Below are positions 24,765 to 29,208 of a DNA stretch of 64,000 nucleotides, piece after piece. The notes under the pieces were generated by a model, which was not told where the DNA came from, made no database searches, and saw only the letters and a list, made by a program, of their open reading frames with translations. The stretch covers positions 153,436 to 217,435 of the forward strand of contig JADGAT010000001.1 in NCBI GenBank assembly GCA_015231885.1, read 5' to 3'. Position 1 is the first letter of the stretch, and every line of letters begins with the position of its first letter. Source of the stretch: SAR324 cluster bacterium. Lineage in GTDB: Bacteria; SAR324; NAC60-12. A program made the position numbers and the translations under genes.

Positions 24765-25253
24765 TCAATTATTGCATACCTCAAAACGATTGTATTCCAC
24801 ATTTTTTTGTACACGGTCAGGAGTAAAAAGACATCCATTCATTGCAATGTATACTCCTGAGGGCAGCAACTGTACAGAGGCTATGGCAAAGCCTATGTTG
24901 AACACGGCATCACTGACCTTGAGCTTTGCGGGCTGCATGGCTCCAGTGAGAACAACTACTTTTTCAGTCAGTTCTTGCAGCCTCCTGGCTGTAACAACCA
25001 TGGTATCTGTTCCATGAGTTACAATAAATTTTCGATGTGAATCGGTGAGTATCGTTTCATAAATCAATTGACGATCTTCATCTGTCATATCAAGACTGTC
25101 TTTACGAAGTACGGATTTTACTTCATAGTCAACCGTGACATTTGCTTCTTTTAAGAGTCCTACAATCTGAGGTTCTCCCACCTGAAATGTACTCTTTTGG
25201 TCAAAGTATATTTTGTCAATGGTACCACCAGTAGTAATAATTTTTATTGCCAT
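24765..25253 (-). CDS. stand-alone asparaginase N-terminal-domain protein
   Basis: The ATG at 25253 gives 163 residues beginning KIITTGGTIDKIYFD, the first active-site Thr region of type I/II asparaginases. The second asparaginase motif follows as FIVTHGTDTMVVTARRL with the Thr-Asp pair, then VVVLTGAMQPAKLKVSDAVFN. Full asparaginases are about 330 residues with a C-terminal domain; that domain is absent and there is no downstream continuation. Small single-domain relatives are known in proteobacteria, so it is probably an intact short form. Substrate is unproven. It converges with the LPP20-like gene, 17 bp apart. Confidence 0.8.
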   Translation of the reverse strand: MAIKIITTGGTIDKIYFDQKSTFQVGEPQIVGLLKEANVTVDYEVKSVLRKDSLDMTDEDRQLIYETILTDSHRKFIVTHGTDTMVVTARRLQELTEKVVVLTGAMQPAKLKVSDAVFNIGFAIASVQLLPSGVYIAMNGCLFTPDRVQKNVEYNRFEVCNN

Positions 25254-25544
25254 CCTCTTTCTCTGAAAGTCGTTTAACTTTTCTGTATAGTGTGCTATGG
25301 TCTTTATGTATTTACTAATTGTGCTCAAGCATTCGAAACAAGCGCTTTCCATTTAAGGTTGTTTTGAATATAATACCCATGCCCGCCTTACACTTTCAAC
25401 TATATATTTCTTCCTTATCTTCAGGATAGATCTTCTAACAATGTTGTTGATGTACCTTGCCTATTAAAAAGTTGTGGTGTATTGCTTTTTTTTGTTGGTC
25501 TGCTGGTTATTTTTCCCGAAAAAATTATATTACAATTATAAGAG

Positions 25545-27053
25545 ATGATACCTGCTATAGAAGTTTTATATGTACAAAGCCTTATCTCCAGAAAGGGAAA
25601 GGATTTACAACAAGAGTTGCTGTTTTTTCTCCGTATTGCCAATCTAGGCTATGAAAAAAAAATACGAATCCAATGGGCCGGAAAAAATCGACATTGGCGG
25701 ATACTGGGAGCAAATTTTCACAGCGTTGCCAGCGATGGGCGAGAGTATTGGGTTGCTCAGGCAAAATTTAAAGAGGCTCATGAAGATAAGCTTCCTGGTG
25801 ATATTGAGTTTGCTGTATATTACCGAGTATATGAAAACGAGTTCTGGGAGGATAACGCCGGGCACAATTACAGAATTAAAGCAGATTCTGGAGTTCGGTT
25901 ATTTTCGCAAATGCCTTTAATGATTCTTGGGCAACAGTCCCATTTGAAACGCAATCAGAAATATGTGCAAATCCATGCTGCAGTGCACGAGTCTATTGAT
26001 CCTCAAAAAGTGTATTTGCATTGGACCGCTGATCAATGGAAAACAACACGTCAAACGCCTTTATTCTGTAGAAAAAACTATTGGAAAAAAAATAATGACA
26101 GTAATGCAGCAAATCCTAACCAATATGGCTATGGTATTTGGACTACCCGATTGAAAGTCGGGAATGACTTTCGTATGGAATATGCCCTTGCCTGTGAAGG
26201 CATTGAGGAAATATTTTGGGATAACAATGTAGGGGAAAACTATAAGGCAAGCAGGGATCCGTTAACAATCCTTATTCTCAATTTGCATTGTTATCAGGAA
26301 AAGAACCAGAACTTCAAACTGCAACAAATTGCAAAGGCCATTCAGGATTTAGATATTGACATTATCTGCTTTCAAGAAGTAGCCGAAAATTGGAATGACG
26401 GCAATGGAGACTGGGAATCCAATTCTGCAAAAATTATTTGGGAGCATGTTGGCAAACCGTACAAACTTTATACGGATTTTTCTCATCTTGGTTTTGATCG
26501 CTACCGAGAAGGAGTTGCCATTCTTAGCAAATTTCCATTTTTGGCTAAGGATTCGAAATATATTTCGGATAGCGACGATATCTACAGTATCCATTCTCGG
26601 AAAGTGGTAATGGGTCAGGTGGAGGTTCCTGGCATGGGAGTGATCAATGTTTTTTCTGTACATGCGAGTTGGTGGGAGGATGGTTTTCAGAATCAGTTTG
26701 AAAATTTGAGAGCGTGGGCCAAATCCAAGCATTCATCTGAAGTGGTGGCCTCTTTTCTTTGTGGAGACTTCAACATCAAAGCCGGTTCTGAAGGATATGC
26801 CTGGGTACGGCAAACTCAAGAATATGGAGACCAGTATCTGAAAGCAACTTCCCCTGATACATTTGCCCGAGTGTTCAGTGGTCAAGTTCTGGATTGGAAA
26901 AGTGACCTTGAGCATGATGGGAGAATCGATTATATTTTTATGGAAAACAATAGCCTGTTGAATGTAATGTCAGGTCGAGAATTGTTTACAGAACAAGACT
27001 ATGGCAGAGTTTCTGATCACATCGGCTATTTGATGTCTTTTGAACCAAAATAA
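25545..27053 (+). CDS. tandem CBM21-like + endonuclease/exonuclease/phosphatase family protein
   Basis: Three domains are readable. Residues about 25-112 form a CBM21-like (glycogen/starch-binding) module: ANLGYEKKIRIQW, then EFAVYYRV and FWEDNAGHNYRI. Residues about 135-235 form a second: KVYLHWTADQWKT, MEYALACEG and FWDNNVGENYKA. Residues about 238-502 are an EEP (DNase I/sphingomyelinase-like) domain with ILNLH, CFQEV (Glu278), HASWW, GDFN (Asp408, Asn410) and SDH (490-492), so the metal-dependent phosphodiesterase site looks complete. No signal peptide is seen; a TAA lies just before the ATG. The phospholipase D family gene follows 22 bp later. The substrate is unknown; a phosphoester bound to or near an alpha-glucan is an inference. 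Confidence 0.8.
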   Translation: MIPAIEVLYVQSLISRKGKDLQQELLFFLRIANLGYEKKIRIQWAGKNRHWRILGANFHSVASDGREYWVAQAKFKEAHEDKLPGDIEFAVYYRVYENEFWEDNAGHNYRIKADSGVRLFSQMPLMILGQQSHLKRNQKYVQIHAAVHESIDPQKVYLHWTADQWKTTRQTPLFCRKNYWKKNNDSNAANPNQYGYGIWTTRLKVGNDFRMEYALACEGIEEIFWDNNVGENYKASRDPLTILILNLHCYQEKNQNFKLQQIAKAIQDLDIDIICFQEVAENWNDGNGDWESNSAKIIWEHVGKPYKLYTDFSHLGFDRYREGVAILSKFPFLAKDSKYISDSDDIYSIHSRKVVMGQVEVPGMGVINVFSVHASWWEDGFQNQFENLRAWAKSKHSSEVVASFLCGDFNIKAGSEGYAWVRQTQEYGDQYLKATSPDTFARVFSGQVLDWKSDLEHDGRIDYIFMENNSLLNVMSGRELFTEQDYGRVSDHIGYLMSFEPK

Positions 27054-27075
27054 TAGAGGATAAGAAGCGAAGCTT

Positions 27076-28677
27076 ATGGAATCTGCAGAACAATACGCCA
27101 AACCAGTTACTGGAATCATGGAAACATTTTTTCCAAAATCTAATGACTTTCGAGAAGTGTTTCAACTTCGTTGGGGAAGAATCTATTTTGATGTATTTTG
27201 GGGAAAAAACTTAAACATCAAGGTTCTTATAAAAGTATACCGCAGCGAGTGTGACGGGTTTTTTGAACGATTTTTGGTTGATACAGAGCCTTACGAGGAA
27301 GGAGAGTGGGATTTTCACAAGCGAATGACTAGGGATTTTTATGTTCACCCATTTTCTGACAAGCATGGACGAGCAACATGCGTCAAATTTTCCTACATCG
27401 TGCATATAGATGGCCGTTCTATTCCTTCGTATCACGAATATATTTATATGGATTGGAATCAGCTGGAGAATGGGGATTTTCAACATCGCCACATTACGGA
27501 GGATTGGGCTACTGTGAACACTTACCGTACTCATGAATTGAATGCGGGAGAGCTGCAAAATGACGTGAATTGGTACAATCATGATTTTGGATCATTGCAT
27601 GTCAACCCAAAATTCACAAAAGGTCAACCCAGTCATCCTTTCCATCCCAAGCGATTCATCCATGACCACATTGACAAGATGATCTGGAAGAAGCAAACGG
27701 ACCCACACGGATTTTATTCAATCAAGGTGAGTGTGGATTGTATTGATGATATGGATTTCACAAGGCACTTGATTGATGCTCACAACGCAGGGGTATGTGT
27801 GCAGTGTATTGTGGATTGGCGAAAGATGACGTTAACCCACAGTGACAGCTATGCGGGCCTCAAACGCTCTGGTATTGAATTGCTTGGTGTGTTTTGTACT
27901 CCCCAGCACCATAAAATTGAGGTTGCACCCGATATGCACACCAAATTTATTATTTTTGGAGATGAAGATTGTATTTTGGGTTCGTTCAATATCACTTTTG
28001 ACCGCTGGTGGGCCAACTGGGAATCAGGAATGACATTTCATTCTCATGGTGTGGTACGACTGTTGGATAATATTTTCCAAAGCATTCGTGGAGGATGTAT
28101 TCAGAGCTATTACATCAACCCAATGAGTCATTTTAATATATTCTACACCTTTGGGGCTCATATGACACTTGGAGGAAATTTTTATTTTCCTCACCAGGCG
28201 ATTGTCTCAGAAATTCATCGGGCCCGACATTCAATAAGGCTCTGTTTGTTTTTAATTGGAGAATTGGAAGGGGAGCATCATGATAGTGTGATTGATGCTT
28301 TGATTCATGCACAGCATCGTGGTGTTAGTGTGCATGTTATGCTCAATGGGCACTTGGCAAGAGTGGGAGGCCCGGGAATGGAAATTTCGATGCATGATGA
28401 ACTACGGAGACCATTGCTGCCAGCAGCACAGAGACTTAGAGATGCAGGCATTAATGTATCTCTGGTTTATGGACAGGATGATCATCCAGTACCATATTCT
28501 CCGGTTCACTCCAAATATTGTGTTATTGATGATTATATTGTCATAGAAGGAAGCTTTAACTGGTACAATACATCCATCTACTCTCATGATTTGGTGGTGC
28601 TGGCTGCTAACTATGAATTGGCACAAGCCTACGTGCACGAATTTTATCAAATCTTACGATTGTTTAGAGTCTACTGA
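27076..28677 (+). CDS. phospholipase D family protein with two HKD-type motifs
   Basis: A 533-residue protein. Residues 1-200 are an N-terminal beta-rich region not assigned to a family (FREVFQLRWGRIYFDVFWG). Two PLD half-domains follow. The second has a complete motif: His478-x-Lys480 and Asp485, then GSFNW at 492-496. The first has His288-x-Lys290 and GSFN at 302-305, but the aligned Asp position (295) is Gly with Asp at 296. PLD enzymes use the two His residues, so phosphodiesterase activity remains plausible. No signal peptide or membrane segment is seen. It is 22 bp downstream of the CBM21-EEP gene with a GAGGATAAG ribosome site, so the two are probably co-expressed. Confidence 0.8.
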   Translation: MESAEQYAKPVTGIMETFFPKSNDFREVFQLRWGRIYFDVFWGKNLNIKVLIKVYRSECDGFFERFLVDTEPYEEGEWDFHKRMTRDFYVHPFSDKHGRATCVKFSYIVHIDGRSIPSYHEYIYMDWNQLENGDFQHRHITEDWATVNTYRTHELNAGELQNDVNWYNHDFGSLHVNPKFTKGQPSHPFHPKRFIHDHIDKMIWKKQTDPHGFYSIKVSVDCIDDMDFTRHLIDAHNAGVCVQCIVDWRKMTLTHSDSYAGLKRSGIELLGVFCTPQHHKIEVAPDMHTKFIIFGDEDCILGSFNITFDRWWANWESGMTFHSHGVVRLLDNIFQSIRGGCIQSYYINPMSHFNIFYTFGAHMTLGGNFYFPHQAIVSEIHRARHSIRLCLFLIGELEGEHHDSVIDALIHAQHRGVSVHVMLNGHLARVGGPGMEISMHDELRRPLLPAAQRLRDAGINVSLVYGQDDHPVPYSPVHSKYCVIDDYIVIEGSFNWYNTSIYSHDLVVLAANYELAQAYVHEFYQILRLFRVY

Positions 28678-28701
28678 AAAAATTTCAGAAAACCCCGATT
28701 G

Positions 28702-29208
28702 ATGTTAGAGAAAATTTTAGTAAGCTCATGTTTGCTTGGACAAAAAGTCCGGTATAATGGCACTGATAAAAAAATTGGAGATAACCGTTTAGACAAATGG
28801 CTGCAAGAAGGGCGTGTCATCCCATTTTGTCCTGAAGTTGCAGCAGCTCTTCCTGTACCCCGTGCTCCCGCAGAAATTTCAGGAGGAGATGGAAACCAGG
28901 TCCATGACGGCACAGCAGAGGTCATTGACGCTGATATGCAAAATGTATCAAAATATTTTGTGGAGGGGGCTAAATTGGCTTTTGCTGAAGCCAAGCGAGC
29001 TGAAGTAAAAGTTGCTTTGTTAAAAGCAGACAGTCCTTCTTGTGGCAATAAAGATATTCATGACGGAACATTTTCAGGCAAGAAAATAGTAGGTTCAGGA
29101 GTGACTGCGGCATTACTCGAAAAAAAAGGAATTCCAGTTTTCAATGAGAATGAACTGGGTGCAATGGATAGTTATGTCAGAAATTTGGAAAATATGGACA
29201 AAAATTGA
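28702..29208 (+). CDS. DUF523 family protein
   Basis: A 168-residue protein with the DUF523 signatures: ILVSSCLLGQKVRYNG at the N-terminus, IPFCPEVAAALPVPR, then ALLKADSPSCGNKDIHDGTF. Three conserved cysteines (Cys in SSCLLG, FCPE, PSCG) suggest metal or cofactor binding, though the function of the family is not established. It ends with a short variable tail. The start ATG at 28702 is preferred over a TTG at 28699. It lies 24 bp after the PLD gene on the same strand and could belong to the same transcript. Confidence 0.9.
   Translation: MLEKILVSSCLLGQKVRYNGTDKKIGDNRLDKWLQEGRVIPFCPEVAAALPVPRAPAEISGGDGNQVHDGTAEVIDADMQNVSKYFVEGAKLAFAEAKRAEVKVALLKADSPSCGNKDIHDGTFSGKKIVGSGVTAALLEKKGIPVFNENELGAMDSYVRNLENMDKN

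Follow-up and report, generated by a model that had tools for sequence, protein, structure and literature searches.

When covalently bound to glycogen or starch, phosphate affects the structure and turnover of the polymer in animals and plants, and its mishandling is linked to Lafora disease. In such alpha-glucan-storing cells, laforin and the plant glucan phosphatases join a module that grips glycogen or starch to a phosphoesterase. Specifically, laforin combines a CBM20 domain with a dual-specificity phosphatase. The glycogen-targeting subunits of protein phosphatase 1 (PPP1R3A, PPP1R3B, and PPP1R3C) carry a CBM21 domain and recruit a separate protein phosphatase.

Here, we describe a pair of genes in a 64-kb stretch of DNA from a SAR324 cluster bacterium (hereafter, the window). 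The first encodes two CBM21 domains fused to an endonuclease/exonuclease/phosphatase (EEP) domain, and the second encodes a separate partner protein of the PLD superfamily. The resemblance to laforin is one of working principle only. Pfam found neither a CBM20 domain in the EEP protein nor a dual-specificity phosphatase with its CX5R motif, the two components of the laforin type, and the pair is therefore not a member of the laforin family. With the PPP1R3 subunits there is homology in the CBM21 domain itself, including the conserved WDNNxGxNY and NxxYxK sugar-site residues, but here the domain occurs in two copies within the same polypeptide as an EEP enzyme instead of recruiting a separate phosphatase. 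The tethering of a phosphoesterase by a glucan-binding module is a known principle in eukaryotes; its realization as CBM21-CBM21-EEP with a PLD partner is, as far as can be told, new. A search of the open-access literature gave no description of the pair and no article uniting CBM21 with EEP, and CBM21 goes unmentioned in the accessible sections of a review from 2024 of prokaryotic alpha-glucan enzymes (PMC11046441).

Domain architecture of the pair

The EEP gene (25545..27053, + strand) encodes a protein of 502 aa, and the PLD gene (27076..28677, + strand; 533 aa) follows it on the same strand after 22 bp. A sequence-only reading of the window had placed both genes here and had assigned the downstream one to the PLD superfamily; the coordinates and the Pfam matches described below agree with it on both points. 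The GC content of the two genes (0.40 to 0.41) is that of the window (0.40). Judged by eye, neither protein has a signal peptide at its N terminus. AlphaFold models of the two proteins were of low confidence (mean pLDDT of 45.5 and 41.9), having been built from two-sequence alignments of the window and one other locus.

The N-terminal part of the EEP protein had been read as two CBM21-like modules, an assignment that profile searches bear out. Over the whole protein, Pfam matched CBM21 (PF03370) in two stretches at 61.5 bits against a cut-off of 28.9 (E = 1.1e-16), and when the modules were scored singly in a genome-wide scan they reached 38.4 and 34.5 bits, both above the same cut-off. Family profiles of both modules, each made from 23 sequences, matched the solved CBM21 structures of PPP1R3A, PPP1R3B, and PPP1R3C, and the module 1 profile also matched Rhizopus glucoamylase (2DJM). 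Furthermore, hhalign relates one module to the other (probability of 97%). Sugar-contact residues were taken from PTG bound to beta-cyclodextrin (PMC9582199). By this comparison, module 1 (25617..25880, + strand; residues about 25 to 112) keeps its primary sugar-site residues, with N33, Y36, E37, and K38 in place of N177, F180, E181, and K182 of PTG, and it keeps site I in part. Module 2 (25944..26246, + strand; residues 134 to 234) keeps site I (W225, N227, and N232) but not the residues of site II. A double CBM21 also occurs apart from any such enzyme: in a bacterium unrelated to that of the window (genome G068, L006 1495-2343), a 282-aa protein that we read as secreted combines a signal region of lipoprotein type with two CBM21-like domains and has no EEP domain.

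The EEP domain (26262..27038, + strand; residues 240 to 498) was matched by Pfam over residues 256 to 492 (PF03372; 59.5 bits against a cut-off of 24.5; E = 5e-16). Its catalytic motifs, which had looked complete in the sequence-only reading, are so: all expected residues are present, and N246, E278, H373, D408, N410, D462, D491, and H492 show conservation of at least 97% across an alignment of 43 rows. The closest solved EEP structure, 3TEB from Leptotrichia buccalis, was matched along the whole length of the domain (E = 2e-31), but bacterial EEP proteins of this type have no CBM21 and no known link to glycogen. The window's genome, its congener, and many methanotrophs also encode a free-standing EEP paralogue of roughly 280 aa (L009 1501-2343, L005 1492-2334, and L022, among others). 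The EEP domain of this paralogue is about 35 to 40% identical to that of the pair, and the paralogue differs in having neither CBM21 nor a PLD partner.

In the partner protein, Pfam found PLDc_2 (PF13091) in two stretches (116.2 bits; E = 1.2e-33), and each of the two PLD domains has an HKD motif. The second (28507..28560, + strand; H478-x-K480-x4-D485-x6-GSFN495) is canonical and matches PF00614. The first (27937..27990, + strand; H288-x-K290...G295-D296...GSFN305) is off by one: in the alignment its H and K are kept, position 295 is G or N, and the acidic residue stands at D296. Two PLD-fold domains with HxK...GSxN are shared with NucT, cardiolipin synthases, DrmC, and the C-terminal domains of polyphosphate kinase, but the window protein differs from all of these in lacking D at the canonical position of the first motif and in having an N-terminal domain of its own. 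No named NCBIfam family reaches its cut-off on this protein, which shows weak similarity to the nuclease NucT and to DrmC in that library. The first PLD domain is also weakly similar to PF13090, the C-terminal domain of polyphosphate kinase (E = 4e-4), at a score of 20.3 bits that lies below the cut-off of 25.8. The N-terminal domain (27076..27540, + strand; residues 1 to 155) is conserved, spans about 155 residues, and went unremarked in the earlier reading. It has no match in Pfam or the PDB, and the idea that it might be a hidden third CBM21 found no support in profile comparison.

Two other genes lie close to the pair. A small gene of 169 aa (28699-29208, + strand) begins 21 bp downstream of the PLD gene, in the same orientation, and might share a transcript with the pair. 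By eye, we take it to resemble DUF523; it has no NCBIfam match and is not among the recurrent neighbors of the pair in methanotrophs. On the other side (24765-25352, - strand), a 195-aa asparaginase-like protein aligns with type I/II asparaginases over their N-terminal half only, and could represent a short family or a truncated gene.

Distribution and genomic context

The scans covered one genome per species, and many of the genomes are incomplete. Of 52 genomes from the window's phylum, 2 contain full-length relatives of the EEP protein; among named genomes, scanning turned up one further organism, the methanotroph Methylomicrobium sp. RS1. In the order to which RS1 belongs, the full-length EEP gene is present in 153 of 301 species sampled. 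Within its family, 128 of 201 species have an EEP match at E < 1e-100, which is far stronger than the matches of the EEP-only paralogue. Among the class (369) and phylum (399) samples of Pseudomonadota, the only match of that strength was RS1 itself. Three candidates outside RS1's order were rejected: G549 and G862 match just the EEP portion, with reading frames of 268 and 266 aa, and the G465 protein is a lipoprotein-like EEP without CBM21.

The two genes of the pair travel together. A relative of the PLD protein is present in 131 of the 201 genomes of RS1's family, and both genes occur in 125 species, with 3 and 6 exceptions (Fisher p = 4e-42, the 201 genomes being counted without correction for shared ancestry). 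At least 5 of these 9 exceptions lie at contig ends. In a survey of 40 loci from the same family, again counted without phylogenetic correction, the PLD gene comes directly after the EEP gene in 36, with gaps of 15 to 717 bp, and in the remaining 4 it lies elsewhere in the genome. Thus, the pairing seen in the window is a stable one that recurs in other genomes.

Glycogen genes, namely those for GH57 branching enzyme, GlgX, GlgA/B/C, and MalQ, accompany the pair in its cluster at 33 of the 40 loci; the flanks examined at the other 7 methanotroph loci contain none. By comparison, the CBM21-free EEP paralogue in the same family has a glycogen gene nearby at 1 of 20 control loci (p = 5e-9). In the commonest arrangement (27 loci), a GH57 branching enzyme is encoded upstream of EEP-PLD, and 19 loci of this type include the debranching enzyme GlgX. 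A second arrangement, which includes that of RS1, has malQ and glgC on the opposite strand, followed by glgB-glgA-EEP-PLD. At other loci, the pair faces glgA or glgB. That unlike arrangements contain the same class of neighbor argues against simple descent of a single gene order. In 26 of the 40 clusters (L070 7579-8307 and 25 other loci), the GH57 branching enzyme gene is immediately preceded by a DUF4912 gene, whose product is a conserved glycogen-linked protein. The presence of GlgA was uninformative as a discriminating test of co-occurrence because it is nearly universal in the family (190 of 201). About a third of the GlgA-bearing genomes are without the EEP-PLD pair, which is therefore not essential for glycogen.

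The context in the window's own genome is different. Inspection of the open reading frames of the 64-kb window revealed no glycogen gene beside the pair, and no canonical GlgA was found in the genome. Elsewhere in that genome (L101 8119-16205; G000:C161), a GlgM-type synthase, a GlgE-like protein, a TreZ-like protein, and a sucrose-phosphate synthase are encoded in a row. The synthase matched TIGR02149, of GlgM/GlgA type, above its cut-off (518 bits), and the TreZ-like protein fell just below its own (529 bits against 538.8). The GlgE-like label is a reading of the sequence by eye, with only weak GH13-type matches in NCBIfam. Because of the genes at this GlgM-type locus, an alpha-glucan pathway is probably present, and the evidence suggests a route of the maltose-1-phosphate type instead of one with canonical GlgA. 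The relative G005 does have canonical GlgA. There, about 7.6 kb separates the EEP gene from the PLD gene, and the several TPR- and pentapeptide-repeat genes in between are apparently an insertion into the ancestral pair (L018 10321-16789; G005:C78). In a tree, a branch with support of 100/100 sets the window and G005 copies apart from all 37 methanotroph copies sampled, and the EEP proteins of the window and G005 are only about 52% identical. A recent transfer from a sampled methanotroph into the window's lineage is not supported by this tree, by the identity of about 52%, or by the matching GC content.

Possible roles of the pair

Taken together, our results suggest dedicated bacterial handling, by the pair, of phosphate-linked groups on or around stored glycogen. 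The sequence-only reading had proposed a role on alpha-glucan and had left both storage and defense open. The first part gains support from the glycogen context, from its near absence around the control paralogue, and from the GlgM-type locus of the window's own genome; as for the second, the pair looks like a storage-glucan module and not a defense system, because its recurrent neighbors are glycogen enzymes and its PADLOC matches are only generic. Tentatively, we favor a cytoplasmic phosphoesterase pair that acts on storage glycogen as a bacterial functional analog of laforin. The two CBM21 domains would anchor the EEP enzyme to the glycogen particle, where the EEP domain would cleave phosphoesters; the target of the PLD partner would be the same phosphodiester or a linked one. 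The likeliest substrate, by analogy with laforin, would be glucan-bound phosphate, or else an adduct or cross-link of phosphodiester type carried by the glucan, and the outcome would be glycogen that stays branchable and degradable. The cytoplasmic location is judged from the look of the N termini only. An argument against this laforin-like reading is that nucleases and phospholipases are found in both the EEP and the PLD family. It also counts against it that phosphate on bacterial glycogen is an unsettled matter (PMC13011383), that the pair has no glycogen gene next to it in the window or in the flanks of 7 of the 40 methanotroph loci, and that many GlgA-bearing genomes do without the pair. 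Glucan phosphate lowers the affinity of branching enzyme (PMC13011383), an effect that would fit the branching-enzyme neighbors.

The position of the EEP gene directly after glgA in RS1-type clusters raises another prospect, which is that the pair regulates the supply of sugar nucleotides or sugar phosphates while tethered to glycogen. The EEP enzyme, with or without its PLD partner, would cleave ADP-glucose or a similar donor and limit synthesis, doing the same job as the unrelated ADP-glucose pyrophosphatase of E. coli. EEP enzymes do act on a range of small substrates, breaking phosphoanhydride or phosphodiester bonds, but we know of none that cleaves donors of the ADP-glucose type, and the PLD partner is left unexplained. 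Furthermore, the window's genome is apparently GlgM-type without canonical GlgA, which rules out ADP-glucose for GlgA as the substrate in common. We regard such regulation as unlikely. Ranked behind it, and unlikely as well, is a clean-up or nutrient-scavenging function in which glycogen is the scaffold only and the two enzymes degrade nucleic acid or phospholipid borne on the granule. The nucleases and phospholipases of both superfamilies and the weak similarity of the PLD protein to NucT and DrmC are in keeping with this, but we know of no reason for such molecules to gather on glycogen, and constant residence among enzymes of glycan structure suggests action on the glucan.

PLD-fold enzymes transfer as well as hydrolyze. 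Conceivably, then, the PLD protein writes or rearranges a phosphate-bearing group or phosphodiester on the glucan, and this mark is erased by the EEP enzyme, tethered through its CBM21 domains. The noncanonical first HKD motif, the weak PF13090 resemblance of the first PLD domain, and the retention of the two genes together would fit such a division of labor. The PF13090 score, however, is below the cut-off and reflects a shared fold, and to our knowledge there is no donor for the transfer. We consider this more doubtful than either supply regulation or clean-up; if true, it would amount to a regulated bacterial glycogen phosphorylation cycle of a kind not described before. Least probable by far is a pair of nucleases for anti-phage or other defense that recognizes a glucosylated or glucan-coated target. 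It draws on a generic PLD-fold similarity to DrmC of DISARM (PADLOC E = 4e-10) and to similar models, but the DrmC score of 37.7 bits against a cut-off of 133, together with neighbors that are glycogen genes, led us to reject DISARM membership. Likewise, the EEP protein has no convincing match to a defense model in PADLOC, and roughly half of the whole order retains the pair. A defense role was rejected on the glycogen neighbors and on the library scores in PADLOC and NCBIfam.

The conserved, glycogen-linked phosphoesterase pair of methanotrophs makes the question of bacterial glycogen phosphorylation (PMC13011383) directly testable in strains that are tractable. More generally, the pair bears on how methane-consuming bacteria store and mobilize carbon.
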